A stretch of DNA of 53,985 nt from Jiella mangrovi (GTDB lineage Bacteria; Pseudomonadota; Alphaproteobacteria; Rhizobiales; Rhizobiaceae): the NCBI RefSeq assembly GCF_017815135.1, contig NZ_JAGJCF010000025.1, positions 1 through 53,985 on the forward strand, written 5' to 3'. The notes beneath the pieces were generated by a model. That model made no database searches. It was not told where the DNA came from and was given only the letters and a program-made list of their open reading frames with translations. Made by a program: the position numbers and the translations under genes. Position 1 is the first letter of the stretch; each line of letters begins with the position of its first letter. Positions 20,513-38,970 of this stretch are shown here, one piece after another.

Positions 20513-21196
20513 ATGGCGCGAGGTGGCCAGCGAAATGGCAGCAGGCGAGACCGCCGCGAGAGCGGGTCGGACCGGCCTCGCCGGCGCCCCGACCTTCGCG
20601 CCGCGGCCGCGCCGGCAGACGTCCATGCCGCCTCCACGGTGCTGATGGCGGCACTCGAGCGCGGCGATTACGCCGCCGCAGCCGACGCGCTGGACATCCT
20701 CGCCGCCGCTGAGCCGGACAATGCCGCGCTGCATTACAACCGCGCCCTCGCCCTGCGGCTTTCCGGCCGGCCAAGGGACGGCTTCGACGCCGCCCGGCGC
20801 GCCCGCGCGCTCGATCCGGCAAACGGCAAGGCCGTGTTCGAGGTCTGCGCCTGCGGCCTCGAATGCGGCGAGCCACAAGCCTCGCTCGAAGCCGGCACCG
20901 CCTATCTCGCCGTCCATCCCGGCGACGCGGACGCGGCGCTGAACAGCGCGCGAGCCGCTCTCCTCCTCGACCGGCCGGAAGACGCCCTCGCCCTTCTCGG
21001 TCAGGTCCCCGCGAACCAGCTTTCCGACGATCATCGCCTCTGCCGGGGCGAAGCGTTGCGAGATCTTAGCCGTTTCGATGAGGCCGAGTGCGCCTGGGCA
21101 CATGCTGGTTCAGCAAGCGCCGGGCTCGTTCTGTCGCTGCGCACCAAAGGCCCGCGTGGCCGGCTCGCCCTCAATCCGGCGCGGCTTTCGCCCTGA
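20513..21196 (+). CDS. TPR-repeat protein
   Basis: The 227-residue protein begins with about 35 basic residues (rich in Arg, Gly and Asp) and continues with tetratricopeptide-like helices. Units are seen in AALERGDYAAAADALDILA, NAALHYNRALALRLSGRPRD, ARRARALDPANGKAVFEVC and LLLDRPEDALALLGQVP. No signal peptide is visible, so it is probably cytoplasmic and mediates protein contacts. GGGAG precedes the ATG by 8 bases. It converges with and overlaps the 3' end of the minus-strand gene at 21171 by 26 bp. A long opposite-strand frame here is a shadow. Confidence 0.75.
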   Translation: MARGGQRNGSRRDRRESGSDRPRRRPDLRAAAAPADVHAASTVLMAALERGDYAAAADALDILAAAEPDNAALHYNRALALRLSGRPRDGFDAARRARALDPANGKAVFEVCACGLECGEPQASLEAGTAYLAVHPGDADAALNSARAALLLDRPEDALALLGQVPANQLSDDHRLCRGEALRDLSRFDEAECAWAHAGSASAGLVLSLRTKGPRGRLALNPARLSP

Positions 21197-21872
21197 AGCG
21201 CTTGCGATAGACGCCGGGATCGGCATCGAGCGCGTCCTGCAGCGCGAGGCTCGCGGCAAGCTCGGCCTCGTCCATCTCGCGGCATGACACCGAGACGGGC
21301 TCACGGCGCACGAAAACCGCCTGCGCCACCGGCGTTCCGGCCGGCACGACGCCTTCGAAATCCGGATCGGTCCAAAGGGCGGGAAAGTGGATGAAGCCCG
21401 CCGGAAAGTCGTCGACGAGGCCGGTAAGCGTGCGAAACGGCAAGTCGAGAAGGTTGTGCGGATGAGAGAACAGCATCGACCAGCCCGCGACCATGTCGAA
21501 CGCCCAGGGATTGGTGAATTTCACGGCGAAGCGATCGGGATCGGCGCCTGGAAAGCCGCTGAGCTGCTCGGGCAGATGAACCCCGACGGGAGAGCGGGTG
21601 AGCCGTGCGACAGGATGGGCGGGAAGCCCGCTATCCCATTCGAAGAGGCCGTCCTTCACATGAAGATCGGCGATCAGCGGAAACAGGATGCCGGCGCCCA
21701 TCGCATCGACGAAGGGCGGGCACTGCTTCACCGTCCGCACCTCGGCACCAATCAGCTCCGAAACGGCGCTGCGCGGCATGGTCTTCAGCCACTGCGGCAG
21801 ACTGCCGGCGGCGGCTTTCGGCTCGGGGATTTTGCCCTTCCAGCCGGGCAGGCAGCGAAATTGAAGCTTCAT
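21171..21872 (-). CDS. Conserved protein of unknown function
   Basis: I do not assign a family. The 233-residue, apparently soluble protein contains WLKTMPRSAVSELIGAEVR, TVKQCPPFVDAMGAGILFPL, VKFTNPWAFDMVAGWSMLF, HPHNLLDLPFRTLTGLVDD and FIHFPALWTDPDFEGV. The T-V-K-x-C-P-P-F-x-D-A-M block resembles uncharacterised proteins I recall from marine bacteria and phages, but I cannot verify this. It starts 73 bp after the stop of the PotC-type permease on the same strand, so it may be the last gene of that operon. Confidence 0.7.
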   Translation of the reverse strand: MKLQFRCLPGWKGKIPEPKAAAGSLPQWLKTMPRSAVSELIGAEVRTVKQCPPFVDAMGAGILFPLIADLHVKDGLFEWDSGLPAHPVARLTRSPVGVHLPEQLSGFPGADPDRFAVKFTNPWAFDMVAGWSMLFSHPHNLLDLPFRTLTGLVDDFPAGFIHFPALWTDPDFEGVVPAGTPVAQAVFVRREPVSVSCREMDEAELAASLALQDALDADPGVYRKRFRAKAAPD

Positions 21873-21945: not shown

Positions 21946-22806
21946 TCACCCGGCGCCGGCTCGTCGCTTGGCCCGCATCTGGCCCATAGCCCAGACCAGC
22001 GAGGCGAGGATCGTCACGGCGATGAAGATGACGCCGATGGCGTTGATCATCGGCGAGAGGCCGAAGCGCATGCGGCTGGCGATCTCCGTCACCAGCGTAT
22101 AGTCCGGCCCGATCGAGAAGAAGGTGGTTGGAAAGTTCTCGATCGACTGCAGGAAAGCCAGCACCGCGGCCGTGCCGATGGTCGGCGCCAGGAAGGGCAG
22201 CGTCACTTTGCGAAAGGTGAAGAACGGCGTCGCGCCGAGGTCTGCGGCCGCCTCGTCGAGGCTTCGGTCCTGACGCGACAGCCGCGCCATGAAGAGCAGG
22301 AGGCAGTAGGAGGCGATGAATGAGGACTGCGCCATCATCGCCGTGAACAGCCCGGCATCGACGCCGAAGGCATCACGCCAGAAGATCATCGAGGTGCCGC
22401 CGAGGACGATGCCCGGGATCATGATCGGCGCGACGAGGACGGTGTAGAGGAAGCCGTTCGCCCGGCTCTCCAGCCGCGTCAGCAGCAGCGCTCCGGCGAT
22501 ACCGAGCGGAATGGCGAGGGCGATGACCCCGCAGGCAATGAGGAGCGAGTTGTACAGCCCGGTCATGATCCGCGCATCGTTGAAGGCCGCGACGAACCAT
22601 TTCAGCGTGAAACCCTGCCACATGGTGATCGAGGGGGAAGGATAGGCGTTGAAGGCCGCCGCCACCATGATGAGGATCGGTGCGAAGAGAACGACGAAGA
22701 AGACGCCGAGATAGATCTTGATCAATGTCTGGCCGAGGCCAGCGGGATAGGACTTGGAGGACACCGTGGCGTCGATGGCAGCCGTATCGCCGACGGTAGC
22801 GCTCAT
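21946..22806 (-). CDS. ABC transporter permease, PotC type
   Basis: The 286-residue protein starts at an ATG overlapping the PotB-type stop (ATGA). It has six membrane helices, starting with IYLGVFFVVLFAPILIMVAAAF, and the coupling motif DEAAADLGATPFFTFRKVTLP near residue 195. The family exports or imports no solute alone: it pairs with the upstream PotB-type permease. Members move polyamines, 2-aminoethylphosphonate or related cationic or zwitterionic solutes. A much longer open frame extends upstream to 24003, but that part is a shadow of PotB. Confidence 0.92.
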   Translation of the reverse strand: MSATVGDTAAIDATVSSKSYPAGLGQTLIKIYLGVFFVVLFAPILIMVAAAFNAYPSPSITMWQGFTLKWFVAAFNDARIMTGLYNSLLIACGVIALAIPLGIAGALLLTRLESRANGFLYTVLVAPIMIPGIVLGGTSMIFWRDAFGVDAGLFTAMMAQSSFIASYCLLLFMARLSRQDRSLDEAAADLGATPFFTFRKVTLPFLAPTIGTAAVLAFLQSIENFPTTFFSIGPDYTLVTEIASRMRFGLSPMINAIGVIFIAVTILASLVWAMGQMRAKRRAGAG

Positions 22807-24068
22807 TTGGCGATCTCCCGGATCGAGACCTTGAACAGCGACAGCACCATCAGGATGAAGACGATGCAGCTCATCAGCAGCATCAGGGAATAGGCCGAAC
22901 CCTGATTCCAGTTGCCGCTCTCGAAAAAGCGACGGTAGATCACCTGGCTGAACCAGTCCGGATGAAGGCCGCGCCCGAGCAGTTCCGGCACGGTGATGAC
23001 GCCCGCCGACAGCATGAAGACCAGGATCGAGCCCATGGCGATCCCGGGTTTGGCATGGGGCATGACGACCCGGTAGTGCACCCGCCACACCGAGGCGCCG
23101 AGATCGCGTGCCGCCTCGACCTGGCTGCGGTCGAGCGTGCCGAGCGCGTTCATCAGCGGGAACATCATGAAGAGGACGAAGGTATAGGCCGAAACGAGGA
23201 AGACGGTGTTGTTCGAGGCGACCCATTGCGGCGGATCGGCGCCGACGAGGCCGAGCCATTGGAGCGCGGAGTTCAACACGCCCTCGCGTGCGAGGATCAT
23301 CACCCAGGCATAGACCCGCAGAAGCTCGTTGATCGAATAGGGAATGACGAGCAGCAGAAGGATCGCGCCGGCCCCGAGCGCGCCTTGCACATTGGAAGCG
23401 AAATAGGCGACGGGATAGCAGACGGCGAAGGATATCAGCGTGACGAGCGTCGCGTAGAAGATCGTCTTGACGAAAATCGTCAGGTGCAAGGGCGAGATCG
23501 TCGAATAGTTCTTCAGCGAATAGCGCGGGGCATTGGCTGCTTCCGTCACGAGCCGCGCCTGCTTTTCCCGAAGCGTCGCCATCTCCTTGTCGGCGAGGGT
23601 GCGCTTGGCCTTCAGATCTGCAACCTCCTTGGCGAGGGAAGCGGGCGTCTTCTCGGCCGACGAGGCGCCCGGAAAGGATGGCAGCAGCGGAGATGACGGC
23701 GAAGCCGGTGAAGGATTTTTCGCCGCATCGGGCCTGTTTTGCGCCGAGGGAACGCTCATGCCGGGCACGAGAAAGCCACCAACGCTTCCGGCTTCCTCGG
23801 CGGCGCCATCGCCAGGCGTCTTGGCCGAAAGACCGGCGATCTCCTGTTCGTGGGCCTTGATGTCGTAGTCGAGCGTCGCGATGTCGCGCGACAGCGCGTT
23901 GACGGCGGTGTTGGTGCGGGTGAGTTCGTCGCCGCGATCGACATAGACGAACGAGCGCTCGGCCATGGTGAAGAGCGGTGCGGCAATCATCCCGCCGATC
24001 CACAGAACGACCAGCCCGAGGATCAGCGCCGTCAGCGGCCCGCCATAGGTTCGAAGCAGCGCGCCCAT
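22803..24068 (-). CDS. ABC transporter permease, PotB type, with long periplasmic insert
   Basis: The 421-residue protein is about 120-130 residues longer than usual PotB (around 290). After TM1 (LTALILGLVVLWIGGMIAAPLF) comes an insert of roughly residues 48-175. It holds two predicted helical or coiled-coil stretches (ALSRDIATLDYDIKAHEQEI and SLAKEVADLKAKRTLADKEM) around a Pro/Ser-rich linker. Five further helices follow, with the coupling motif EAARDLGASVWRVHYRVVMP. The insert lies on the periplasmic side if TM1 is inserted normally and might contact the binding protein. It sits between the ATPase gene (three bases away) and the PotC gene (overlapping). Confidence 0.92.
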   Translation of the reverse strand: MGALLRTYGGPLTALILGLVVLWIGGMIAAPLFTMAERSFVYVDRGDELTRTNTAVNALSRDIATLDYDIKAHEQEIAGLSAKTPGDGAAEEAGSVGGFLVPGMSVPSAQNRPDAAKNPSPASPSSPLLPSFPGASSAEKTPASLAKEVADLKAKRTLADKEMATLREKQARLVTEAANAPRYSLKNYSTISPLHLTIFVKTIFYATLVTLISFAVCYPVAYFASNVQGALGAGAILLLLVIPYSINELLRVYAWVMILAREGVLNSALQWLGLVGADPPQWVASNNTVFLVSAYTFVLFMMFPLMNALGTLDRSQVEAARDLGASVWRVHYRVVMPHAKPGIAMGSILVFMLSAGVITVPELLGRGLHPDWFSQVIYRRFFESGNWNQGSAYSLMLLMSCIVFILMVLSLFKVSIREIAK

Positions 24069-24071
24069 GGC

Positions 24072-25211
<1,140 letters not shown>

Positions 25212-25287: not shown

Positions 25288-26217
25288 TCAGATCGCCTGC
25301 ATGGCGTCGGTTTCGGAGGTCTCGTCCTCGAACATGCCGGCGAAGATGTCCGGCTCCTCGGGGACGCTGGTCGTTCCGAGCGAAAACACCTGCCAGCGCA
25401 GCCACTGCGTCAGCGCCACGGCATCGGAAAAACCGGCAATCACCGCCGGCTCGACCGGCCGGCCGATATTCAGCGCGATCCGCCCGTCGATCATGAGCGC
25501 TGCTTCGTGGAATAGCAAAGCATAGCGAAGCGATTGCGACAGGTGGCTGGCGATCTGAAACGGCAGGGAGTTCTGGCCCGGCATGTGGACCGGCAAAACG
25601 GTGGCGCCCGAACGCATGATCAGCCGCGCCGACAGCGGCCCCCAGGCGAGTTCGACGGCGCGTCGTGCCAGGGGATGCGGCGTCGTCATGACAGCGCCGG
25701 CCGGAAACACCATCAGGCAGCCACCACCCTTGAGATGCGCCAGCGCCTCGGCGCGGGCCCTGATGTTGCCACGCTCGGCCTCTCTGGTGCCGGAGAAATC
25801 GATCGCGAACAGCTTTTCGGCGAGTTCGGGAACCCGCGCCAGCGCCGAATGGGCGATGATCTTGACGTCGCCGCGAACCCGGCCGAGCAGGCAGCCGAGC
25901 GCGATCCCGTCCATCGCCCCGTAAGGATGGTTGGCAACGACCGCGAGCGGCCCCTCGCGCGGGATCCGCGCCATGCCGCGGGCGGCGAGGCGGATGTTCA
26001 TCCGCGAGATCGCCTCGGCGAAGAAATCGCCCCGGGCCGGATCGTCCAGATAGTCCTGATAGAGCCGTTCGAGGCGCCGCTGCCCTGTCATCGCCTCGAG
26101 GCCGAGGCAGAGCCGGCGCATGAGGCGGTGATCGATGGTCGCCGCGTAGGACAGGCGCACGCCCGATTGCGGCGATCTTTCCACGAAGCTGTCGTCGAAC
26201 GGTGTCTGGTCGTCCAA
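25288..26217 (-). CDS. PlsC-like lysophospholipid acyltransferase family protein
   Basis: The core has the acyltransferase motif I in VVANHPYGAMDGIAL (NHxxGxxDG, where the usual x4D is spaced as in hemolysin-type acyltransferases), motif III in GGCLMVFPAGAV and motif IV-like VLPVHMPGQNS. No membrane span is obvious, so it is probably peripheral on the inner membrane, transferring fatty acyl groups to a lysolipid or amino-lipid. The start is uncertain. TTG 26217 gives 309 residues, and the open frame to 26481 is mostly low-complexity Arg-rich sequence. Its location inside a transporter operon with Pho-box control hints at membrane lipid remodelling under phosphate limitation. Confidence 0.82.
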   Translation of the reverse strand: MDDQTPFDDSFVERSPQSGVRLSYAATIDHRLMRRLCLGLEAMTGQRRLERLYQDYLDDPARGDFFAEAISRMNIRLAARGMARIPREGPLAVVANHPYGAMDGIALGCLLGRVRGDVKIIAHSALARVPELAEKLFAIDFSGTREAERGNIRARAEALAHLKGGGCLMVFPAGAVMTTPHPLARRAVELAWGPLSARLIMRSGATVLPVHMPGQNSLPFQIASHLSQSLRYALLFHEAALMIDGRIALNIGRPVEPAVIAGFSDAVALTQWLRWQVFSLGTTSVPEEPDIFAGMFEDETSETDAMQAI

Positions 26218-26402
26218 TTCCCGTGACCTTCTGGACCATGGGGCCGTCTCGGCACCCTGGATTGAATGGCGGCGCACGAGACCCGTCGGGCTCGCACGCC
26301 GCAGTCGTTCATCCCCTGGCGGCCCGCGCCTCTCTCCCTCGCCCCCGCGCCTTTCAGCGACGCGTCGAGGGCGCTCGAACGACCGAGCCAGCCACGGGTT
26401 GA

Positions 26403-27563
26403 TCAGGACGCGTTGGTGATGCGGTCGACATATTCCTGCTGACCGGAGGCAAAGAACGGCGTATCGGGCTGCCACCACCACAGATTGGCAAGGTTCTCGG
26501 CGTTGTAGACCTCGCCGAACTGCTTGGCGTAGGTCTCGCCGGCATATTTCGCGCCGCCGTCGACGCAGGAATTGTAACCGGTATTGGCGCTCATCAGGCC
26601 GGCCATCTCGGGGTCCAGCATGGCGTTGATGAAGGCATAGGCCTGTTCGATATTTTCCGCGCCGGACGGGATCGCCATCGAATCCATCCAGGTCATGCCG
26701 CCTTCCTTGGGCATGCGATATTTCAGCTCCGGCTTGTCGCGGTTGAGCAGGAGGCCGGTCGAGTCCCAGGTCTGGCCGGCAACGCAGCCCGACTGCTGGA
26801 AGGCGTTGAGCGCCTCGGTGGCGTTGTTCCAGAAGGCGCCGAAATTCTCCTTGTGGTCGACGATGTAGCTCGCCACCTTGTCGAACACCCGGCGCATGTC
26901 CGCTTCGCTCTTGTAGACGTCGAGCATGCGGTTCGACTGGATTTCACCCTTGGCGTCGAGGTAAAGGCCGGTGCCGATCAGCACCGACTTCTGCCGGAAG
27001 GCCGCCTTGCCCTTGGCTTTCGGGTCCCACAGCATGCCGTATGAAACGTCCGCGTCGTCGACGCCGTCGAAGACCGACGAATCGAAGGTCACCGCCTCGG
27101 TGCCCCAGTTGAACGGGATGGCGACGCGCTTGCCGTTCTGAACCGCGCCGAGCTGGATCGAATCGCGGTACATCGACGGGATGACCTTGTCGACATTCGC
27201 CTTCTTCTCGTCGATGGGCTGCAAGAGGAAGGTGTCGCCGTCCTGATAATTCGCGACATTGGTGATCGACGGGAAGATGATGTCGAAGCCCTTGCCGCCG
27301 GACGCCTTCAGCTTCTGCGTCGCCTCGTCGTTGGAGCCGTAGGTCGACACGTTCAGCTTGATGCCGGTGTCCTTCTGGAACTTGTCGATCATGTTCTGCT
27401 GAACGTAGTCGCCCCAGACGAAGACGTTGACGGTGCCGGAACTCTGACCGAAACCGGGGCGCGTCAGAACGGCGGGCGCGGCGAGGAAAGCGGCGGTAGC
27501 GGCGCCACCCTTGAGCAACGAGCGGCGGGAGATCGGCTTGGCGAGGGTCATAAAACGATCCAT
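26403..27563 (-). CDS. ABC transporter binding protein, PotD type, Tat-exported
   Basis: The 386-residue protein has a twin-arginine signal (SRRSLLKGGAATAAFLAAPA) and then the PotD fold: VNVFVWGDYVQQNMIDKF, GFDIIFPSITNV, RVAIPFNWGTEAVTF, VAGQTWDSTGLLLNRDKP and EGGMTWMDSMAIPSGAENIE. It binds the solute in the periplasm for the PotABC-type transporter. It is the first gene of the minus-strand operon. A reversed array of Pho-box-like repeats (27606-27649) ends 43 bp upstream of its start with a possible -10 (TCTAAA) between, so phosphate-starvation induction is likely. The substrate may thus be a phosphorus compound such as an aminophosphonate. Confidence 0.9.
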   Translation of the reverse strand: MDRFMTLAKPISRRSLLKGGAATAAFLAAPAVLTRPGFGQSSGTVNVFVWGDYVQQNMIDKFQKDTGIKLNVSTYGSNDEATQKLKASGGKGFDIIFPSITNVANYQDGDTFLLQPIDEKKANVDKVIPSMYRDSIQLGAVQNGKRVAIPFNWGTEAVTFDSSVFDGVDDADVSYGMLWDPKAKGKAAFRQKSVLIGTGLYLDAKGEIQSNRMLDVYKSEADMRRVFDKVASYIVDHKENFGAFWNNATEALNAFQQSGCVAGQTWDSTGLLLNRDKPELKYRMPKEGGMTWMDSMAIPSGAENIEQAYAFINAMLDPEMAGLMSANTGYNSCVDGGAKYAGETYAKQFGEVYNAENLANLWWWQPDTPFFASGQQEYVDRITNAS

Positions 27564-27605
27564 CCGGGAAAGGGGAAGATTTAACGCAGCCTTTTAGACC
27601 GGGCA

Positions 27606-27649
27606 GATGACGCTTCGTTATCAGCGCGATGACAGAGTGATGACGGCAC
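27606..27649 (-). promoter_or_regulatory. Pho-box-like array driving the PotD-type operon
   Basis: Read on the plus strand, GATGAC, GTTATC, GATGAC and GATGAC start at 27606, 27617, 27628 and 27639, exactly 11 bp apart. On the minus strand three of the four read as GTCATC repeats. PhoB boxes are CTGTCAT repeats with 11-bp period, so orientation and spacing fit activation of the PotD-type gene. Confidence 0.65.
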
Positions 27650-27658
27650 CGGTGCGCG

Positions 27659-27687
27659 CGTCATCCCGGCGTCATCGCCCCGTCATC
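27659..27687 (+). promoter_or_regulatory. Pho-box-like array driving the PHP gene
   Basis: CGTCATC occurs at 27659, 27670 and 27681, three perfect copies with 11-bp period on the plus strand, ending 49 bp before the PHP start codon. The array is the mirror counterpart of the one at 27606-27649. Confidence 0.7.
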
Positions 27688-27736
27688 GAACCGGCGGCAG
27701 GATCGCGCATCCATCCACCACCGGAGACGAGACGAC

Positions 27737-28648
27737 ATGGACGGGCGCGAGGCCTTTTCGGCCGACGGGCGATTTCATCGCGGCAACATTCATACCCATT
27801 CGAACCGGTCCGATGGCGCGCGCGCCCCGGGCGAGGTCTGCGGGCTCTACCGGGAGATGGGCTATGATTTCCTCTGCCTGTCGGACCACTTTCTCGAGCG
27901 CTTCGACTTCCCGATCACCGACACGACGGCCCTTCGCGGCAGTGGCTTCACGACGCTGATCGGCGCCGAGATCCATGCGCCGCAGAACAGCCAGGGCGAG
28001 ATCTGGCACGTTCTTGCCTGCGGACTGCCGGTGGATTTCGAGCCACCTCAGGACGGCGAGCGCATGGAGAGCCTGGCCGCCCGAGCCAGACAGGCCGGCG
28101 CCTTTGTCGGCATTGCCCATCCCCAATGGTCGTCCCTGACCATCGAGGACGGCCGGGCTCTGGCGGGTATCGCCCACGCCGTGGAAATCTGGAACACCGG
28201 CTGCGCGCTGGAGACCGCACGCGGCGACGGCACCGCGCTATTCGACCAGCTCCTGAACGAGGGTCACCGGCACCTGACCGGCTACGCCACCGACGACGCG
28301 CATCTGAAAATTCCCGATGCCGGCGGCGGCTGGATGATGGTCAAGGCCGAGGCGAACGATCCGGACGCGCTGCTCGCGGCCATGAAGGCCGGGATCTACT
28401 ATTCGAGCCAGGGCCCCGAACTCATGGCGATCGAGGCGGTTGCAGAGAGGCTGGTGGTACAGAGCTCGGCGGTTCGGATGATCTCGATCGTCGGCCGGGG
28501 CAGCCGGGCGGAGACCGCCTATGCCCCGGAGGGAGCGCTGACCACCGCCGAGCTCCCGCTCGAGCGCTTTTCGGGCGACTGGTGCCGCGTCGTGGTTTGC
28601 GACGCCGAGGGGCGTATCGCCTGGTCGAACCCGATCTTTCCGGACTGA
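27737..28648 (+). CDS. PHP-domain metal-dependent phosphoesterase
   Basis: The 303-residue protein is a PHP phosphoesterase. Metal ligands are visible as His19-x-His21 (NIHTHSNRSDG) with Asp26, Asp50-His51 (CLSDHF), Glu78-x-His80 (GAEIHA), His128 (GIAHPQW) and Asp-x2-His near 186-189 (TDDAH). No signal peptide is present. PHP enzymes hydrolyse phosphomonoesters or diesters, and the PHP protein PhnPP of Eggerthella acts on cyclic ribose phosphate from the C-P lyase pathway. Here the gene is preceded by Pho boxes, diverges from a Pho-box transporter operon and converges on phnF. A role in C-P lyase or phosphodiester breakdown is plausible. Confidence 0.88.
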   Translation: MDGREAFSADGRFHRGNIHTHSNRSDGARAPGEVCGLYREMGYDFLCLSDHFLERFDFPITDTTALRGSGFTTLIGAEIHAPQNSQGEIWHVLACGLPVDFEPPQDGERMESLAARARQAGAFVGIAHPQWSSLTIEDGRALAGIAHAVEIWNTGCALETARGDGTALFDQLLNEGHRHLTGYATDDAHLKIPDAGGGWMMVKAEANDPDALLAAMKAGIYYSSQGPELMAIEAVAERLVVQSSAVRMISIVGRGSRAETAYAPEGALTTAELPLERFSGDWCRVVVCDAEGRIAWSNPIFPD

Positions 28649-28670: not shown

Positions 28671-28692
28671 TCACACCGGCTCGCCGGTGTGA
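28671..28692. repeat. Perfect 10-bp inverted repeat at the phnF 3' end
   Basis: TCACACCGGC (28671-28680) and GCCGGTGTGA (28683-28692) are exact complements around TC. The first bases are the phnF stop codon. It lies 22 bp after the converging PHP gene, so it may act as a shared transcription stop, though no T-run follows. Confidence 0.5.
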
Positions 28693-29414
28693 TCGAAGAC
28701 CAGCTCGACCCGGCTGCCGAGAAAGCGCGAGCGGGCATATTGCAGCGGCTCGCCCGCCGCCGTCACGGTGAGGCTGGTGGTGGCGATCAACGGCGTCGAC
28801 AAGGCACAATGCAGGTGCTCGGCGTCTCTTGGATCGGCGGGGATCGCCGCGACCTTCGTCCAAAGCCGGCGCTGGCCGGAAAAGCCCAGTTTCGTCAACG
28901 CCCCGGTCAGCGACCCCGCCTCCGCATAGGCGGGAATGATGCCCGCCAGACGGGCCTCCTCGAACCAGATCGTCGAGACGATCAGCGGCGCGCCATCGGC
29001 GACGCGCAGAAGCTCCAGCCGGATCACGGTTGCATTCGCCCGGCAGCCGAACGCCTCGGCAAGCTCTGCCGAAGCCATCTCGCGGGCCGATGCGATCATC
29101 GTTCCGCCCGGCTCGCGCGAGGCCGCGCCGATATTTTCCGAGAACCGGCTTTGCGAGCCGACAGGATAGACGATCCGGCTGGGCCGCGGCGCCGCGAAAG
29201 TCCCGCGGCCGCGGGTCGCCGTCAGGAGGCCTTCTTCGCTCAGCGTCGCGAGGGCCCGGCGCACCGTATGGCGATTGACGCCGAAGCGCTCGGCAAATTG
29301 CGTCTCGCCCGGCAACCGCCCGGCCAGCCGGCCCTCGGCGATGTCGAGGCGAAGGCTGTCGGCGATCTGCCGCCAGCGGGCAATGCCTGCTTTGTCGTCT
29401 GCCGTCACGCGCAT
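28671..29414 (-). CDS. phnF: PhnF, GntR/HutC-type regulator of the phn operon
   Basis: The 247-residue protein has a winged helix (about 12-80) with GRLPGETQFAERFGVNRHTV, RRALATLSEEGLLTATRGRGTF and a UTRA ligand-binding domain (about 95-240) containing IRLELLRVADGAPLIVSTIWF and YARSRFLGSRVELVFDHTG. This matches PhnF, the repressor associated with phosphonate uptake and C-P lyase genes. ATG 29414 has AAGGGATGGA upstream, while the longer frame to 29465 lacks a site. It diverges from phnG with a HutC-type operator between them, so it likely represses phnG onward and itself. Confidence 0.9.
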   Translation of the reverse strand: MRVTADDKAGIARWRQIADSLRLDIAEGRLAGRLPGETQFAERFGVNRHTVRRALATLSEEGLLTATRGRGTFAAPRPSRIVYPVGSQSRFSENIGAASREPGGTMIASAREMASAELAEAFGCRANATVIRLELLRVADGAPLIVSTIWFEEARLAGIIPAYAEAGSLTGALTKLGFSGQRRLWTKVAAIPADPRDAEHLHCALSTPLIATTSLTVTAAGEPLQYARSRFLGSRVELVFDHTGEPV

Positions 29415-29492
29415 TCCATCCCTTGCCGCTGCCACTCGGGTGCCTCGGCGCCCGCGCGCGGGCACACACCGACCGTCGGCTTTTCAGGCCAC

Positions 29493-29521
29493 CGTCATTT
29501 ACCCGTCACACCCGACATGCT
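29493..29521 (+). promoter_or_regulatory. Pho-box-like array upstream of phnG
   Basis: CGTCATT at 29493, CGTCACA at 29504 and a degraded ACATGCT at 29515 are 11 bp apart. A possible -10, TATACA, follows at 29529-29534. This fits a PhoB-activated promoter for phnG. Confidence 0.6.
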
Positions 29522-29550: not shown

Positions 29551-29611
29551 ATAAACAAATAAAGCGGGGACCGAACGCCCGCCCGAGCGTTCGAGCATCA
29601 CAGCCAGATCC

Positions 29612-30091
29612 ATGATGACAGATCCCGAAACGCCCATTCCGAGAAACGGCGAAGCCACTGCCCGCCGTCGCGCTGTATCGGTTTTCGCGCAAGCGGATGC
29701 CCGGTTTCTTGAGGACGCATGGAAACGGCTCTGCGGAGACCGGGAGATCGCTCCTCTGCGAGGCCCCGAAACCGGCCTCGTCATGGTTCGCGGGCGGGCC
29801 GGCGGCGGCGGCGCGCCGTTCAACCTCGGCGAGGCGAGCGTCACCCGGGCGAGCGTGCGCATCGGTGGCGACAGCGTCGGCCACGCCATGGTTCTCGGCC
29901 GCGACCTCGAGCGGGCGAAATTTGCCGCCGCCTTCGATGCCCTCTGGCAGATCGAGACCGAGCGCCAGTCGATCGAAACGCAGGTCGTGGCGGTCGTCGA
30001 GGCGGCAATGGCCGAACAGGATGGTCAACGCCGCGCCGAGACCGAGGCCACCAGGGTCGATTTCTTCACCCTGATGCGCGGAGAGGATTGA
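29612..30091 (+). CDS. phnG: C-P lyase core subunit PhnG
   Basis: The 159-residue protein has the PhnG features FAQADARFLEDAWKRL, LRGPETGLVMVRGRAGGGG, PFNLGEASVTRASVRIGGDSVGHAMVLGRD and AFDALWQ. PhnG is part of the cytoplasmic PhnG2H2I2J2 complex. With PhnI and PhnH it displaces adenine of ATP by phosphonate to form an alpha-D-ribose 1-phosphonate 5-triphosphate. It is the first gene of the phn operon behind the Pho box and PhnF operator. It overlaps phnH by one base (TGATG). Confidence 0.95.
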   Translation: MMTDPETPIPRNGEATARRRAVSVFAQADARFLEDAWKRLCGDREIAPLRGPETGLVMVRGRAGGGGAPFNLGEASVTRASVRIGGDSVGHAMVLGRDLERAKFAAAFDALWQIETERQSIETQVVAVVEAAMAEQDGQRRAETEATRVDFFTLMRGED

Positions 30092-30693
30092 TGACCGGGA
30101 CCGCCGAAATTTCCCGCCGCGCCGTCGAGGGCGGCTTCGCCGATCCGGTTTTCGATGCCCAGGCGGTCTTCGCCGCGATCCTCGAGGCGATGTCGCGCCC
30201 CGGCACGATCGTCGATCCCGGGACAAGGACAACGCCCCCACAGCCGCTGTCTCCAGCCGCAGGCGCCGTCCTCTGCGCTCTCGCCGATGCCGATACGCCG
30301 GTTTTCGTCGAAGAGGCCGACGATGCTCTCGCGGCCTGGCTCGGCTTTCAGACGAGCGCGCGGCTGGCAGATCCCGCAAACGCACGGTTTGCCGTGGTGC
30401 GGCGCTTCGACAAGGCGTCGCTCGAACGTTTTTCCCTCGGCACCCTGGCGTTTCCGGACCGCTCGGCGACCCTGATCCTCGAAGTCGCGTCACTCGAAGA
30501 CGGGCCGGGCTTTCGTCTCACGGGACCAGGCATCTCCGGCAGCACGCTCATGCAGGTCGGCGGACTTGGCAGGGAGTTTGCCGTCGCAAGGCGGGCGAAC
30601 CGCGCCCTCAGCCCTTGCGGGCTCGATCTGATCCTCACCTGCAAGACCCGGATCATCGGCCTGCCGCGCTCCACCATCGTCGAGGAGGCGTAA
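30091..30693 (+). CDS. phnH: C-P lyase core subunit PhnH
   Basis: The 200-residue protein contains GGFADPVFDAQAVFAAILEAMSRPG, FQTSARLADPANARFAVV, FSLGTLAFPDRSATLILE, LTGPGISGSTLM and CGLDLILTCKTRIIGLPRST, typical of PhnH. It is a PLP-fold-derived structural subunit of the C-P lyase core without PLP. The ATG at 30091 overlaps the phnG stop. A longer frame upstream is a shadow of phnG. Confidence 0.95.
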   Translation: MTGTAEISRRAVEGGFADPVFDAQAVFAAILEAMSRPGTIVDPGTRTTPPQPLSPAAGAVLCALADADTPVFVEEADDALAAWLGFQTSARLADPANARFAVVRRFDKASLERFSLGTLAFPDRSATLILEVASLEDGPGFRLTGPGISGSTLMQVGGLGREFAVARRANRALSPCGLDLILTCKTRIIGLPRSTIVEEA

Positions 30694-30694
30694 G

Positions 30695-31834
30695 ATGTAT
30701 GTCGCGGTGAAAGGCGGCGAGGCCGCCATCGCCAACGCCCACCGGCTGCTCGCCGACCGGCGGCGGGGCGAGCGCTCCCTCCCGGCACTGACGCTGGAAC
30801 AGATCGCCGGCCAGCTGGCGCTCGCCGTCGACCGGGTGATGGCCGAGGGCTCGCTCTACGACCCGGAACTTGCCGCGATGGCCGTGCGCCAGTCGCGCGG
30901 CGACCTGATCGAGGCGATCTTCCTCATCCGCGCCTATCGCACCACCCTGCCCCGCTTCGCCGCATCCCGCCCGATCGATACCGGCAAGATGCAGATCGAG
31001 CGGCGGATTTCGGCGACCTACAAGGACTTGCCCGGCGGCCAGCTGCTCGGTCCGACCTTCGACTACACGCACCGGCTGATCGAGCCCGACATGGCCGAGG
31101 ACGGCCCGGTCGAAGCGCCGGCGAGCCGGGAGCCGGCGGACAGCGGACCATCGCCGCGCGTCACCGACATTCTGGGCGATGACGGTCTGATCGAGGGCGA
31201 CGGCGAGGACGACGGCCGCGAGCCGGCCGACCTCACCCGCTCGCCGCTCGCCTTCCCCGCCTCCCGCGATCTGAGGCTCCAGGCGCTGGCCCGCGGCGAC
31301 GAGGGCTTTCTCCTCGGCCTCGGCTATTCCACCCAGCGCGGCTATGGCCGCACCCATCCCTTCGTCGGCGAAATCCGCATCGGCGAGGTGGAGGTCGAGG
31401 TGGATCTGCCGGAATTCGGCTTTCCGGTGGTGATCGGCCGGGTCCGCGTCACCGAATGCCAGATGGTCTCGCAATTCACCGGCTCGAAGTCGGAGCCGCC
31501 GCAGTTCACCCGCGGATACGGCCTGGTATTTGGCCAGCTGGAACGCAAGGCGATGGCCATGAGCCTCGTCGACCGGGCGCTTCGCGCCGACGAATTCGAC
31601 GAGGAGCGCCGCTCACCGGCGCAGGACGAGGAATTCGTCCTCGCCCATTCAGACAACGTCCAGGCGACCGGCTTCGTCGAACATCTGAAACTGCCGCATT
31701 ACGTGGATTTCCAGGCCGAGCTCGATCTTTTGAGGACGATGCGCAAGGTGGACGCACCAGTTACAGAAGACGAACCGCCGCACCGGGACGGGCGATCCCC
31801 CTCCGACCCTAGCCGGAGGGACGCCGCGGAATGA
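30695..31834 (+). CDS. phnI: C-P lyase core subunit PhnI
   Basis: The 379-residue protein begins MYVAVKGGEAAIANAHRLLA and has RQSRGDLIEAIFLIRAYRTT, ISATYKDLPGGQLLGPTFDYTHRLIE and GYSTQRGYGRTHPFVGEI, all characteristic of PhnI. It is the nucleosidase-type catalytic subunit that makes the ribose-phosphonate bond. It starts one base after the phnH stop. The C-terminal 30 residues are a polar extension beyond the conserved part. Confidence 0.95.
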   Translation: MYVAVKGGEAAIANAHRLLADRRRGERSLPALTLEQIAGQLALAVDRVMAEGSLYDPELAAMAVRQSRGDLIEAIFLIRAYRTTLPRFAASRPIDTGKMQIERRISATYKDLPGGQLLGPTFDYTHRLIEPDMAEDGPVEAPASREPADSGPSPRVTDILGDDGLIEGDGEDDGREPADLTRSPLAFPASRDLRLQALARGDEGFLLGLGYSTQRGYGRTHPFVGEIRIGEVEVEVDLPEFGFPVVIGRVRVTECQMVSQFTGSKSEPPQFTRGYGLVFGQLERKAMAMSLVDRALRADEFDEERRSPAQDEEFVLAHSDNVQATGFVEHLKLPHYVDFQAELDLLRTMRKVDAPVTEDEPPHRDGRSPSDPSRRDAAE

Positions 31835-31848
31835 CCCGCCGCTCCGGC

Positions 31849-32019
31849 TCAATTCTCCTTGGGATCCTCGCGTCTGGTCGCATCGTCAGGCTCACGCGGA
31901 CGGCCGGTGATGCCGCGACCATGCTTGCCCGTGACGGGATCGCGGTAAACCAGGAAATACCAGCCGGCCAAGAGACCGACGAGAACCGCGAAAAGCTCGC
32001 CGAGCGCCATCCAGTTCAT
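31849..32019 (-). CDS. Small antisense membrane protein between phnI and phnJ
   Basis: On the minus strand a 56-residue frame has one strong membrane segment (LGELFAVLVGLLAGWYFLVY) followed by a charged hydrophilic tail (DPVTGKHGRGITG and an acidic/basic end). This hydrophobic-helix-then-positive layout looks protein-like, and AAAGGG lies nine bases upstream of the ATG. A longer frame starts at 32058. It occupies the 241-bp gap between phnI and phnJ against operon direction. I do not recognise a family. A plus-strand frame starting at 31831 over the same bases looks like a shadow. Confidence 0.5.
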   Translation of the reverse strand: MNWMALGELFAVLVGLLAGWYFLVYRDPVTGKHGRGITGRPREPDDATRREDPKEN

Positions 32020-32075
32020 TGCCTCGCCCTTTCCCTGTTGGCGCCGACGCTCAACCACTCTGGAGTTTCGCTCCG

Positions 32076-32954
32076 ATGACCATGGCGCTTCCCGCCTACA
32101 ACTTCGCCTATCTCGACGAACAGACCAAGCGGATGATCCGCCGGGCGATCCTCAAGGCCGTCGCCATTCCCGGCTATCAGGTGCCGTTCGCCTCCCGTGA
32201 GATGCCGATGCCCTATGGCTGGGGCACCGGCGGCGTGCAGGTGACGGCGGCGATCCTCGGGCCGGACGATGTTCTCAAAGTCATCGACCAGGGCTCCGAC
32301 GACACCACCAACGCCGTCTCGATCCGTGCCTTCTTCGCCAGGGTGGCGAATGTCGCGGTGACGACGAAGACGGCCGAGGCGACGATCATCCAGACCCGCC
32401 ACCGCATCCCGGAGGTCCCGCTCACCGAGGGCCAGACGCTGGTCTATCAGGTGCCGATACCCGAGCCTTTACGGTTTTTAGAGCCGCGCGAGACCGAGAC
32501 GCGGATCATGCATGCGCTGGAAGAATACGGGCTGATGCACGTCAAGCTCTATGAGGACATCGCTCAACACGGCCACATCGCCACCACCTACGCCTATCCG
32601 GTCAAGGTCGAAGGGCGCTACGTCATGGACCCCTCGCCGATCCCGAAATTCGACAATCCGAAGATGGACGACTGTCCCGCGCTGCAACTCTTCGGCGCCG
32701 GCCGCGAACAGCGGATCTACGCCATCCCGCCTTATACGCGGGTGGAAAGCCTCGATTTCGAGGACCATCCGTTTGCGGTCCAGACATTCTCGCAACCCTG
32801 CGGGCTGTGCGGGGCAACGGGGGTTTATCTCGACGAGATCGTCACAGACGACCGGGGCGGACGGCTCTACGCCTGTTCGGATACCGATCACTGCGAGGAG
32901 CGACGGGACGCGGGGCATGTGGGGTCGGAAGCCTTCACGGGGGCGCGGCCATGA
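32076..32954 (+). CDS. phnJ: C-P lyase radical SAM subunit PhnJ
   Basis: The 292-residue protein is complete PhnJ. It has the glycyl-radical region IPGYQVPFASREMPMPYGWG with Gly33, GSDDTTNAVSIR, and the cluster-binding CGLC (Cys242, Cys245) followed 21 residues later by Cys267, with Cys273 beyond. PhnJ uses a 4Fe-4S cluster and SAM to cleave the C-P bond, releasing an alkane and a cyclic ribose phosphate. ATG 32076 is preceded by GGAG. The operon is interrupted just downstream by a repeat-flanked DUF559 gene. Confidence 0.96.
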   Translation: MTMALPAYNFAYLDEQTKRMIRRAILKAVAIPGYQVPFASREMPMPYGWGTGGVQVTAAILGPDDVLKVIDQGSDDTTNAVSIRAFFARVANVAVTTKTAEATIIQTRHRIPEVPLTEGQTLVYQVPIPEPLRFLEPRETETRIMHALEEYGLMHVKLYEDIAQHGHIATTYAYPVKVEGRYVMDPSPIPKFDNPKMDDCPALQLFGAGREQRIYAIPPYTRVESLDFEDHPFAVQTFSQPCGLCGATGVYLDEIVTDDRGGRLYACSDTDHCEERRDAGHVGSEAFTGARP

Positions 32955-32983
32955 GCGTTTCGGTGAAGGTAGCGGCCGCGATA

Positions 32984-33119
32984 CCCCCTTCTGCCTGCCG
33001 GCATCTCCCCCACAAGGGGGGAGATCAAAGCGTCGATGACGCCGCCGGAGGAACTCGCAACGACAGCCCCCGCCGATCTCCCCCCGTGTGGGGGAGATGT
33101 CCGGCAGGACAGAGGGGGG
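32984..33119. repeat. Paired palindromic repeat, copy 1
   Basis: The left arm 32984-33026 contains CTGCCTGCCGGCATCTCCCC and the right arm 33075-33119 contains GGGGGAGATGTCCGGCAGG. The arms are near-complements, and each also has its own small hairpin (CTCCCCC...GGGGGAG). Copy 2 at 33578-33726 has the same arms with a different central segment. Such CTGCCGG/GGGGGAGAT elements are, from memory, dispersed in rhizobial intergenic DNA. Confidence 0.8.
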
Positions 33120-33127
33120 TGCTCCAG

Positions 33128-33523
33128 CTAGCCTCCCGGCGTCCGACAGAATGCCCCCGGCGACCTCTCCTCGATCACCGCCAGAATGTGGCTGCAGACG
33201 CCGTCGATGTCCTTCAGAACATTGTCGTTCCAGAACCGCACCACCGTCCAGCCATCGGCTTCGAGACGCCGCGTTCGAACCGCGTCGCTTACTTGCGCTC
33301 TGTCGTCTCCGTGCTGCGATCCGTCGATCTCGACGATCAGCCGGTGCACCGGACAGACAAAGTCGACGATGTAGCCGGCAATGGGCACCTGCCGGCGAAA
33401 GCCGAGCCCCATCAGCCGATGCGCCCGCGCGGCGTTCCAGAACTTCAGTTCCGCCTCGGTCATCGCCTTGCGCATCGACCGGGCGTTGTCGCGGTTTTTT
33501 GGCGGAACGGGAGCATGGGGCAC
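33128..33523 (-). CDS. DUF559 (Vsr/endonuclease-fold) protein
   Basis: The 131-residue protein begins MPHAPVPPKNRDNARSMRKA and has the DUF559 core: MTEAELKFWNAARAHRL, GLGFRRQVPIAGYIVDFVCP, LIVEIDGSQH and VVRFWNDNVL. The Asp/Glu residues in IVDF and VEIDG form a PD-(D/E)xK-like nuclease site related to Vsr repair endonucleases. Its biological role is unproven. It lies opposite to the phn operon between phnJ and phnK and exactly between the two paired repeats, which suggests it arrived as a repeat-bounded unit. Confidence 0.9.
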   Translation of the reverse strand: MPHAPVPPKNRDNARSMRKAMTEAELKFWNAARAHRLMGLGFRRQVPIAGYIVDFVCPVHRLIVEIDGSQHGDDRAQVSDAVRTRRLEADGWTVVRFWNDNVLKDIDGVCSHILAVIEERSPGAFCRTPGG

Positions 33524-33577
33524 GTGACGACCTTTTCCAAGACCCGCTATCCTGGCGTGTCTCTGCCCACGTTCCTA

Positions 33578-33726
33578 CCCCCCTCTGCCTGCCGGCATCT
33601 CCCCCACAAGGGTGGAGATCGAACGCGTTCGGGCCCCCGTGCCAGCTGGTCAACGAAGGAAGCGCAGCCGCCAAAGCTGCCGATCTCCCCCCTGGTGGGG
33701 GAGATGTCCGGCAGGACAGAGGGGGG
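33578..33726. repeat. Paired palindromic repeat, copy 2
   Basis: Arm 33578-33620 repeats the left arm of copy 1 with few changes. Arm 33682-33726 repeats its right arm, including GAGATGTCCGGCAGGACAGA. The region between the arms differs in sequence. The copy ends 48 bp before the phnK start codon. Confidence 0.8.
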
Positions 33727-33774
33727 CGCGCCGCGCGGCGAAAGCAGATTGGCCTCCTATCAAAGGCTCACCCC

Positions 33775-34551
33775 ATGACCGACCTCCCCCTCCTAACCGC
33801 ACATGCCCTCACTCGTCATTACGGCAATCATGTCGGCTGCGAGGACGTCTCCTTCGATCTCTATCCCGGCGAGATCCTCGCCATCGTCGGCGAGAGCGGT
33901 TCCGGCAAGACGACGCTGCTCAACTGCCTCTCCTGCCGGATGCCGGCATCAAGCGGCGCGGTCTCCTATCGGATGCGCGATGGCGAGATGCGCGATCTGG
34001 CGACGCTCACGGAGGCCGAGCGGCGGTTCCTGATGCGCACCGACTGGGGTTTCGTCCATCAGAACCCGGCCGACGGCCTGCGCATGCGGGTTTCGGCCGG
34101 CGCCAATATCGGCGAGCGGATGATGGCGGTCGGCGAGCGGCATTACGGCCGCATCCGCGGCACCGCCGAAGACTGGCTCGGCCGCGTCGAGATCCCCGGC
34201 GCGCGCATCGACGACCGGCCGACGGCCTTTTCCGGCGGCATGCGCCAGCGGCTTCAGATCGCCCGCAATCTCGTCACCGCCCCGCGCCTCGTCTTCATGG
34301 ACGAGCCGACCGGCGGGCTCGACGTCTCGGTTCAGGCGCGGCTGCTCGATCTGTTGCGCGGCCTCGTCGGCGAAATGGGGCTGTCGGCGATCGTCGTCAC
34401 CCATGATCTCGCGGTCGCGCGCCTTCTGTCGCACCGCATCATGGTGATGAAGGGCGGCCACGTCATCGAAAGCGGCCTGACCGACCGGGTGCTCGACGAT
34501 CCGCAGCACGCCTACACCCAGCTTCTCGTCGCCTCGATCCTGGAGGTCTGA
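33775..34551 (+). CDS. phnK: C-P lyase ABC-type protein PhnK
   Basis: The 258-residue ABC protein has Walker A GESGSGKTT, VHQNPADGLRMRVSAGANIGERMM, which is characteristic of PhnK, signature FSGGMRQRLQIARNL and Walker B LVFMDEPTGGLD. PhnK binds the PhnGHIJ core rather than a membrane permease. It is separated from phnJ by 820 bp holding the DUF559 gene and repeats, so its expression needs read-through or a new promoter. Confidence 0.95.
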   Translation: MTDLPLLTAHALTRHYGNHVGCEDVSFDLYPGEILAIVGESGSGKTTLLNCLSCRMPASSGAVSYRMRDGEMRDLATLTEAERRFLMRTDWGFVHQNPADGLRMRVSAGANIGERMMAVGERHYGRIRGTAEDWLGRVEIPGARIDDRPTAFSGGMRQRLQIARNLVTAPRLVFMDEPTGGLDVSVQARLLDLLRGLVGEMGLSAIVVTHDLAVARLLSHRIMVMKGGHVIESGLTDRVLDDPQHAYTQLLVASILEV

Positions 34552-34554
34552 GCC

Positions 34555-35280
34555 ATGGCTGACGTTTCCCAAAAGACACGGCTCGTCCTTCAGGACGTTG
34601 CCAAGAGCTTCACCAACCATCTGCGCGGCGGCATTCATCTGCCGGTGGTGAGCGGCGTGGAATTCTCGCTCGCAGCCGGCGAGGTCGTCGTTCTCGGCGG
34701 GCCGTCCGGCGTCGGCAAGTCCTCGATCCTGCGGATGATCGTCGGCAATTACGGCATCGAGCGCGGACGCATCCTGATGCGGGGCGAGGACGACGGCGAA
34801 TTCATCGACATCGCCGCCGCGACGCCGCGCGAGACGCTGGCTCTGCGCTGCAACGTCATCGGTTATGTCAGCCAGTTTCTGAGGGCGATCCCCCGCGTTT
34901 CGACGCTCGATGTCGTCGCCGAGCCGCTTCTCGCCCGCGGCGTTGCGACCTTGGATGCGCGCCGGCGCGCAGGCGAACTCCTCGAACGGCTGAACCTGCC
35001 CGCCGCCCTTTACGACCTGCCGCCGGCCACCTTTTCGGGCGGCGAAAAGCAGCGGGTGAACATTGCCCGCGGCTTTCTCACCGACCATCCGATCCTCCTC
35101 CTCGACGAGCCGACGGCCTCCCTCGACGCCGCCAATCGCGACGTCGTCTGCGACCTGATCGACGCCAAGCGAGACACGGGTGTCGCAATCCTCGGCATCT
35201 TCCACGACGAGGAGGTGCGCGGCCGGATCGCGACGCGCATCGTCGACGTTTCCGGCTTCTCCGCCCGAAAGGCAGCCTGA
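34555..35280 (+). CDS. phnL: C-P lyase ABC-type protein PhnL
   Basis: The 241-residue protein has [23 protein letters not shown] in outline at the N-terminus, Walker [32 protein letters not shown], signature [15 protein letters not shown] and Walker [13 protein letters not shown]. PhnL assists the C-P lyase core together with PhnK. It begins three bases after the phnK stop and overlaps the next gene by one base. Confidence 0.95.
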
Positions 35281-35894
35281 TGGCAAAGCTCTCCGAAACC
35301 CCGCTCATCCATCCGACCGCCCGGGTCGAGGATTGTCACATCGGCCGCTACACGGAGATCGCCGAGCGCTGCAACATCTCCGAGACGCGGCTCGGCGATT
35401 ATTCCTACGTCACCCGCGATTGCGGCATCTGGGCGAGCGACATCGGCAAGTTCGTCAACATCGCCGCCGCCACCCGGATCAATGCCACCAACCACCCGAC
35501 CTGGCGCGCGACGCTGCATCACTTCACCTACCGGGCCGGGGACTATTTCGACGGCGAGGAAAACGAGGCCGAGTTCTTCGAGTGGCGGCGCTCGAACGCG
35601 GTGAAGATCGGCCATGACGTCTGGATCGGCCACGGCGCCACGATCCTGCCGGGCGTCACCATCGGCAATGGCGCCGTGGTCGGCGCCGGGGCGGTGGTTT
35701 CCAGGGACGTCGCCCCCTATACGATCGTCGGCGGCGTCCCCGCCAGGCTCATCCGCCGGCGGTTTTCCGAAACGGTTGCCGAGCGCATGGAGAGGCTCGC
35801 CTGGTGGGACTGGCCACACTCCGCACTCCACGCCGCGCTCGCTGATTTCCGCACGCTCGATGCGGAGCAGTTCCTCGATCGGTACGAACCCTGA
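35280..35894 (+). CDS. Phosphonate-operon hexapeptide-repeat acetyltransferase
   Basis: The 204-residue protein is a left-handed beta-helix acyltransferase with hexapeptide repeats ([60 protein letters not shown]) and a [13 protein letters not shown] end like xenobiotic acetyltransferases. A family of this type is regularly encoded in alphaproteobacterial phn operons and may acetylate aminoalkylphosphonates, much as the unrelated PhnO does. The ATG overlaps the phnL stop. Confidence 0.9.
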
Positions 35895-35919
35895 GCCCCT
35901 CTTCCCATATGGTTTTCAT

Positions 35920-35959
35920 CGTCATCGAAGCATCATCTGAACGTCATCCCAGTCACATG
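35920..35959 (+). promoter_or_regulatory. Pho-box-like array upstream of phnC
   Basis: CGTCATC (35920), CATCATC (35931), CGTCATC (35942) and TCACATG (35953) have exact 11-bp period, 57 bp before the phnC ATG. This implies phnCDEMN has its own PhoB-dependent promoter in addition to any transcription from phnG. Confidence 0.65.
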
Positions 35960-36015
35960 GAGCCCCCGTAAAGCTCTCACCAGAAAACGACATTGCGTCG
36001 ATCGGGAGCTCTGCC

Positions 36016-36888: not shown

Positions 36889-36941
36889 CCGCGGCCGGCT
36901 TCGACGATCGACGAAACCACCAACAGGGAAACCACGACCCC

Positions 36942-37952: not shown

Positions 37953-37967
37953 GCTTTCCCACATTCC

Positions 37968-38028
37968 GGCCGGCTCCGATGCCGGCCGACCCGACACGGC
38001 GGCCGGTCTCCGACGAGGTGACCGGCCG
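37968..38028 (+). other. Two hairpins in the phnD-phnE gap
   Basis: GGCCGGC (37968-37974) pairs with GCCGGCC (37981-37987), and CGGCCGGT (38000-38007) pairs with ACCGGCCG (38021-38028) followed by TTT. Such structures behind a binding-protein gene commonly protect its mRNA and lower read-through into the permease gene, giving more PhnD than PhnE. Confidence 0.55.
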
Positions 38029-38064
38029 TTTCGACGCGACGCTTCCTGACAGGGCTGACCAGAC

Positions 38065-38910: not shown

Positions 38911-38970
38911 GGGTCGGCGCCCCGCAAAGCCGGCATCCGCCCTCTTGTCCAGCATTCCGAAAGTCTTCCT

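Follow-up and report, generated by a model that had tools for sequence, protein, structure and literature searches.

The gap between a PotD-type gene and a divergently transcribed gene for a PHP-domain metallohydrolase (Table 1) carries two back-to-back arrays of PHO-box-like repeats. We consider it probable that they form a bidirectional PhoB-controlled promoter, driving an importer of organophosphorus compounds on one side and the hydrolase on the other. Such a two-way Pho switch, serving the importer on one side and a phosphate-ester hydrolase on the other, suggests that the importer family scavenges phosphorus compounds rather than polyamines. Pho regulation of both units is well supported by the sequence taken together with a published relative, while a phosphorus solute as the substrate is likely, because of the phosphoester-hydrolase and pst neighbours of the importer and the altered pocket of its PotD protein. 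For Phaeobacter sp. MED193, published data already connect PotA/PotD and PHP proteins of this kind with the Pho response (PMC10132767, Table 1). By the literature searched, the bidirectional arrays, the recurrent pairing with hydrolases and the change in the pocket are new here.

Table 1. Features around the potD/PHP gap and in the adjoining C-P lyase region. Positions are those of the window, i.e. the whole stretch of DNA analysed (53,985 bases).
Feature	Position	Strand	Evidence
Conserved last operon gene, phrog_7084 (E 5.8e-27)	21171..21872	-	profile match
PotC-type permease	21946..22806	-	family match
PotB-type permease	22803..24068	-	family matches
PotA-type ATPase, start 25211 or 25250	24072..25211	-	family matches
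OlsF/GlsA-like acyltransferase of the PlsC/Acyltransf_2 type, start at either GTG 26277 or TTG 26217	25288..26277	-	family matches
PotD-type solute-binding protein, TAT signal	26403..27563	-	family matches, alignments
Probable -10 element TAAAAG, 10 nt past last left unit	27591..27596	-	direct reading, genus alignment
Left-reading PHO array, four 11-bp units	27606..27645	-	direct reading, pattern statistics, genus alignment
Right-reading PHO array, three CGTCATC units	27659..27687	+	direct reading, pattern statistics, genus alignment
Probable weak -10 element CAGGAT, 11 nt past last right unit	27698..27703	+	direct reading, genus alignment
PHP-domain metallohydrolase, CehA/McbA family	27737..28648	+	NF038032, alignment, structure model
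PhnF, phosphonate-gene regulator (GntR family), start uncertain	28671..29414	-	TIGR02325, 231.8 bits (cut-off 156.8)
PHO box before phnG (CCGTCAT TTAC CCGTCAC)	29492..29509	+	pattern matches, genus conservation
C-P lyase cluster phnG-H-I-J-K-L, hexapeptide transferase, phnC-D-E, phnM, phnN	29612..40684	+	family matches
PHO array ahead of phnC, outer units at a 22-bp distance, the middle one degenerate	35921..35947	+	three-unit pattern

PHO-box arrays and their conservation

In the PhoB regulons of E. coli and Sinorhizobium, PHO boxes are CTGTCAT-like heptamers, arranged in tandem with an 11-bp period ahead of phosphorus genes. The repeats studied here share the tandem heptamers, the period and the position, but they form two long back-to-back arrays for divergent units and consist mostly of CGTCATC. 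On the minus strand the left array reads CCGTCATCACT, CTGTCATCGCG, CTGATAACGAA and GCGTCATCTGC (positions 27639, 27628, 27617 and 27606, respectively), the unit at 27617 being the degenerate one (GATAAC / GTTATC). On the plus strand the right array reads GCGTCATCCCG, GCGTCATCGCC and CCGTCATCGAA, i.e. CGTCATC at 27659, 27670 and 27681. The original prediction had described four left and three right units with these coordinates, directions and period, and direct reading reproduces all of this. The hexamers TAAAAG and CAGGAT beyond the arrays are probable -10 elements.

The three-unit pattern GTCAT-N6-GTCAT-N6-GTCAT, with up to three mismatches allowed, has 7 matches in the 53,985-base window, where 0.71 would be expected; no shuffle out of 100 gave as many. 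All seven fall into three clusters, 27607-27697, 29483-29509 (before phnG) and 35921-35958 (before phnC), and the sole exact match is at 27660-27686. A pattern designed after the left array had been seen (three GTCAY at its spacing, at most one mismatch; expected 0.02, with a single match in 2 of 100 shuffles) matches that array alone, with 0 mismatches. The looser two-unit consensus with three mismatches shows no significant excess in the window (4 matches, 1.84 expected, 16 of 100 shuffles reaching 4). Genome-wide, CNGTCAT-N4-CNGTCAT has three occurrences: in the potD/PHP gap, before ugpB (E. coli UgpB, A, E and C match there in order, with 48-59% identity), and near the edge of contig C4, where no Pho gene is evident. 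As the window matches all stand ahead of phosphorus genes and a perfect two-unit box also precedes ugpBAEC, the arrays may be read as PHO boxes.

The PHP gene was found in 16 of the 61 genomes searched, among them nine of the ten genomes of the genus (own and nine others; G006 has none). In eight of these nine, own included, the divergent potD/PHP pair adjoins phnF and C-P lyase genes; by its named records, the group comprises Jiella, Aurantimonas and Fulvimarina. In Jiella flava (G002) mere fragments of potD and potA match, the PHP and acyltransferase genes are present, and phnM/phnN lie beside PHP. Loss of the repeats in relatives had been named beforehand as an outcome that would contradict their proposed role. 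The alignment shows, however, that in all eight intact-pair genomes (own included) the left array is kept with its four units, the degenerate one included, and the right array with at least two units in register. The left hexamer (TAAAAG or TACAAG), 10 nt past the array, and the right one (CAGGAT, AAGGAT, AAGAGT or AAGAAT), 11 nt past, are also kept in all eight. Moreover, the two units of the phnG box are in register in 8/8 genomes, and the outer units of the phnC array are kept in the 7/7 examined, own included in both cases. The three-unit statistics and the genus conservation lead us to reject a chance origin of the arrays. The claim that PHO-box-like arrays face two divergent units, with a C-P lyase operon adjoining, is supported; the phnG and phnC arrays and the genus conservation itself are additions to that claim.

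Across the order, a forward two-unit box (p<=0.01) was found upstream of 16 of the 28 potD homologues (37-75% identity), against 0/16 last-gene copies unlinked to potD and 6/29 acyltransferase homologues, while 12/28 potD homologues have no upstream box at this threshold; the null, here and in the box tests on PHP and MED193 below, was first-order Markov resampling per region, p-values are single-test, and loci of the same genus are not independent. By the Mann-Whitney test, potD differs from both controls together (p 2.5e-6) and from the acyltransferase control alone (8e-4). The survey covered 28/29 potD, 29/29 acyltransferase, 16/16 last-gene and 66/67 PHP loci, short upstream rows being left out.

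In Phaeobacter sp. MED193, Westermann and co-workers found PotA (MED193_11419) and PotD (11424) raised at low phosphate, and likewise the PHP protein (18169), DUF1045 and the C-P lyase proteins; in the phoB mutant PotA and PotD are unresponsive, while PHP and DUF1045 are undetected (PMC10132767, Table 1). The genome record, titled Roseobacter sp. MED193, has no locus tags, and therefore the genes were mapped by position, with PhnJ (3,057,875) and a UshA-like gene (about 3,191,000, by eye) as anchors. There is one PotD-profile match (1,796,290) and one PHP-profile match (3,172,834), and their distances from the anchors agree with the tag numbering if one gene takes up 1.02-1.07 kb. The MED193 regulon resembles the system described here in the PhoB dependence of PotA, PotD, PHP, DUF1045 and C-P lyase proteins, but in MED193 some 1.4 Mb separate potD from PHP, and PotD is 37% identical to that of the window. 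With the box matrix, no box was found upstream of MED193 potD (p=0.43), and the one upstream of the PHP gene is weak (p=0.12). On the potD side of potDABC in this genome (L279) we observed a Na/Pi cotransporter-like gene (by eye) and a PehA-like hydrolase gene (437.3 bits), the latter about 4 kb from potD. In the portions of the literature searched, those of PMC10132767 included, no substrate is named for a Pho-regulated PotD.

The importer, its pocket and its neighbours

The leftward genes follow in the order potD, acyltransferase, potA, potB, potC, last gene, and all four PotA, B, C and D family components are present. Equivalog cut-offs are reached by none of PotA (348.2 of 482 bits), PotB (131.9 of 348) and PotD (96.7 of 582). 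The best model for PotA is PhnT2 (353.1 of 457.7 bits), and PotD does not match the PhnS model. PotD scores 74.1 bits with PF13416 and 26.8 with pfam13343, just above the cut-off of 24.6. Two candidate relatives were dismissed: GpxB, being of the PhnD type (PMC12718374), and AepX/AepS, which carry pfam13343 and are phosphate-insensitive according to their description (PMC8316502), the window's PotD scoring higher with PF13416.

Every member aligned retains the E. coli PotD residues Trp34, Tyr37, Trp229, Trp255, Asp257 and Tyr293, while none retains Asp168 or Glu171; we take all these residues to have polyamine-binding roles in E. coli. Depending on the alignment, Asp168 corresponds to Lys192 or a gap, and Glu171 to an insertion or Ser193. 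The motif at this place is RQKS, invariant in 17/17 rows (RAHS in MED193). Among the closest solved structures most are polyamine-binding proteins. The predicted structure of PotD has a mean pLDDT of 41.4 (7-row alignment), and therefore the pocket claim is drawn from the alignments only. An amine site opposite the basic RQKS site would suit a zwitterionic phosphorus compound. The importer has the component set, the site aromatics and Asp257 in common with the spermidine/putrescine importer PotABCD, and differs from it by RQKS in place of Asp168/Glu171, by scores below the equivalog level and by its phosphorus neighbours.

The wide genomic context was analyzed for 15 of the 20 non-congener potD homologues with at least 48% identity; the five left out are G231, G350, G142 and G266, whose genera were already covered, and G260, at a contig end. 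A PHP gene lies within 5 kb of potD in two loci (G281 and G154; in the latter it is on the potC strand and starts 3 bases downstream of potC), a PehA-like gene within 5 kb in six (G268, G049, G134, G208, G106, G246), and pst genes at about 10 kb in three further ones (G182, G364, G209). In total, 11 of the 15 loci have a phosphoester hydrolase of the PHP or PehA-like kind, or else pst genes, as neighbours. None of the phosphorus genes sought is nearby in G202, G113 and G370 (3/15), and the G389 locus is shortened by a contig end. The four PehA-like proteins scanned score 559.5-587.1 bits, below the 900-bit cut-off. The link to PehA/phosphonate monoester hydrolase holds for homologous importers (6/15 loci), but no PehA-like gene was found near the importer of the window. 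Pararhodobacter sp. CCB-MM2 has potD-A-B-C followed by the last gene, an opposite-strand TPR gene and PHP. In Aurantimonas aggregata and two Aureimonas a different importer, with boxes, lies opposite PHP, and its binding protein weakly matches PhnS models (best 67 of 310 bits).

UgpBAEC and UgpQ are an ABC importer and a cytosolic phosphodiesterase for glycerophosphodiesters. The combination of an ABC importer with a hydrolase is the same here, and ugpB of the same genome is likewise PHO-boxed; the differences are the family of the solute-binding protein and the hydrolase, which is PHP or PehA-like, not UgpQ.

The PHP hydrolase and the weighing of alternatives

The PHP protein exceeds the cut-off of NF038032 (103.2 bits, cut-off 80) and stays below that of Pfam PHP (22.4 of 26.4 bits). 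Residues H19, H21, D26, H51, E78, H128, D187 and H189, presumably the metal ligands, are invariant, being kept in all 29 rows. The structure model (mean pLDDT 96.5) best matches the PHP phosphoesterases 3e38 and 2anu and RNase AM.

Genes of the phn core lie within 8 kb of PHP in 10 of 80 PHP loci, six of them congeners. Five lineages have phnM and/or DUF1045 beside PHP, namely Aureimonas Leaf427, Aurantimonas aggregata, Tabrizicola, a Rhodobacteraceae MAG and Jiella flava; such neighbourhoods occur in several lineages with no importer of the PotD kind close by. PHP also adjoins phnF-phnG in G035, where no importer of the PotD kind occurs within the 20 kb examined. It also sits in Ugp-like importer operons, one of them with a model-confirmed HAD phosphatase, and with PotD importers. 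In two loci, L032 (G059) and L034 (G040, checked by model), PHP relatives were observed beside a HAD-type phosphatase and a solute-binding protein of the Ugp-like kind, and these may be operons for the use of phosphodiesters. In the PHP tree (86 rows) the pot-labelled rows lie in two separate clades, and phn-labelled rows occur in both. An upstream box (p<=0.01) precedes 10 of the 67 PHP relatives (about 50-58% identity), 7/24 in one clade and 3/43 among the others (the comparison covering 24/25 and 43/43 loci, a short upstream row being left out); few of the 67 adjoin pot or phn genes. Near PHP, boxes were found at L193, L194 and L191 (p<=0.01) and at L221, and none at L192 and L195.

The mechanism that we propose is the following. 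At low phosphate, phosphorylated PhoB would bind both arrays of tandem 11-bp units and bring RNA polymerase to the -10 element 10-11 nt past each of them. Leftward transcription would yield the ABC importer operon, from potD to the last gene, and rightward transcription the PHP metallohydrolase. The importer would represent a branch of the PotABCD family in which part of the polyamine pocket has been swapped for the basic RQKS motif. Its cargo would probably be a zwitterionic organophosphorus compound, either a phosphodiester (glycerophosphoethanolamine, glycerophosphocholine) or an aminophosphonate or its ester, and PHP would probably hydrolyse either the ester taken up or an intermediate of C-P lyase. 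Elsewhere a phosphodiesterase of the PehA-like kind lies beside the importer in place of PHP.

With the same regulation, PHP could instead serve C-P lyase by hydrolysing 5-phosphoribosyl 1,2-cyclic phosphate in bacteria devoid of PhnP, which we regard as possible, though rather unlikely. The PHP-type enzyme PhnPP of Eggerthella lenta hydrolyses this compound. In none of the 22 genomes searched does PhnP exceed the cut-off, though each has weak matches below it, and PhnJ is present in 19; the five lineages with PHP beside phnM/DUF1045, and the phnF-phnG neighbourhood without the importer in G035, fit the same role. However, DUF1045, presumably a stand-in for PhnP, is present in 18 of the 22 genomes, own included, and therefore the idea of PHP as the sole PhnP stand-in is weakened. 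PhnN is present, and PHP also accompanies importers with no C-P lyase genes in the stretch examined (G281, G154, Pararhodobacter, the Ugp-like/HAD operons), which argues against the C-P lyase role as well. Given its occurrence with phnM/DUF1045 and with importers, the lack of PhnP above the cut-off and the frequency of DUF1045, the substrate of PHP may therefore be an ester brought in by the importer or an intermediate of C-P lyase. An unlikely alternative is that the importer carries 2-aminoethylphosphonate for C-P lyase, PHP being incidental to uptake. The preference of PotA for PhnT2 and the weakly PhnS-like, boxed importer opposite PHP in sister genera agree with such cargo, but PotD has no PhnS match, and several potD carriers pair the importer with PehA-like phosphodiesterases, one of them (G049) without PhnJ.

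That the importer carries polyamines, and is induced at low phosphate because these replace cations or supply nitrogen, appears improbable. The polyamine-binding nature of most of the nearest solved structures and the six retained pocket residues point to it; against it stand the loss of Asp168/Glu171 in all aligned members, the scores of PotA, PotB and PotD under the equivalog cut-offs, the phosphoester-hydrolase and pst neighbours, and the PHO boxes. We give hardly any credence to the arrays being sites of another OmpR-type regulator or chance runs of GTCAT, with neither unit under phosphate control. The near-chance frequency of the two-unit consensus in the window would allow it, but the genus conservation, the three-unit statistics, the phnG and phnC boxes, the box enrichment at potD and the MED193 phoB mutant (PMC10132767, Table 1) all contradict it.

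Beyond the bidirectional Pho promoter itself, we tentatively propose, with somewhat less than even confidence, that widespread alphaproteobacterial importers matching spermidine/putrescine models are Pho-regulated importers of zwitterionic phosphodiesters (glycerophospho-amines), in which an RQKS/R-x-HS phosphate site faces an aromatic amine site and which work with interchangeable cytosolic PHP or PehA-like hydrolases. If so, many "polyamine transporter" genes of soil and marine Alphaproteobacteria would be phosphorus scavengers, and the uptake of phospholipid head groups or of phosphonate esters would be a further route in the phosphorus cycle. This would also help to explain the presence of PotA/PotD and PHP in a published PhoB regulon, and would provide PehA-type ester hydrolases with a likely source of substrate.

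Accessory genes and C-P lyase region

The best NCBIfam matches of the acyltransferase (ACYLTRANSFERASE) are OlsF (114.6 of 620 bits, spanning one OlsF domain) and GlsA (60.9 of 260), both below the cut-offs. It resembles ornithine- and glycine-lipid O-acyltransferases, and therefore may make a phosphorus-free lipid, which it would probably contribute at low phosphate. The gene is linked to potD across the genus, and a homologue (40% identity) lies near potD in one of the 15 non-congener loci (G246). With these lipid-type matches and the rarity of the linkage, the original prediction, supported in part overall, stands for the Pho-type arrays and the divergent units but has less support for an acyltransferase engaged in solute use. 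Six of the 29 acyltransferase homologues (L039-L067) have an upstream two-unit PHO box (p<=0.01), and therefore some of them may themselves be Pho-regulated.

In the C-P lyase cluster PhnG, H, I and J are all present. PHO arrays stand ahead of phosphorus genes in three separate gaps of the window, namely the potD/PHP gap, before phnG and before phnC (35921-35958). Between the PHO box and phnG there is an imperfect palindrome, TTGTCTATACAAATAAACAA (29539-29558), which recurs slightly varied in 8/8 genomes and may be the PhnF operator. No copy of it was seen in the potD/PHP gap, and the repeat search of the window did not list the palindrome itself. A small ORF (33128-33523, minus strand), antisense between phnJ and phnK, resembles DUF559-type endonucleases (by eye); it was found again only in G035 (84%) in a search of 22 loci, of which several were duplicates or did not cover that gap.

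The last operon gene has no Pfam or NCBIfam match; 8 of the 15 non-congener loci show it linked to potD. In the genus and in G281 it is paired with an opposite-strand TPR gene (20513-21196). The same pairing was observed in other families, both with and without potD (by eye), and the TPR assignment was confirmed by Pfam in G182.
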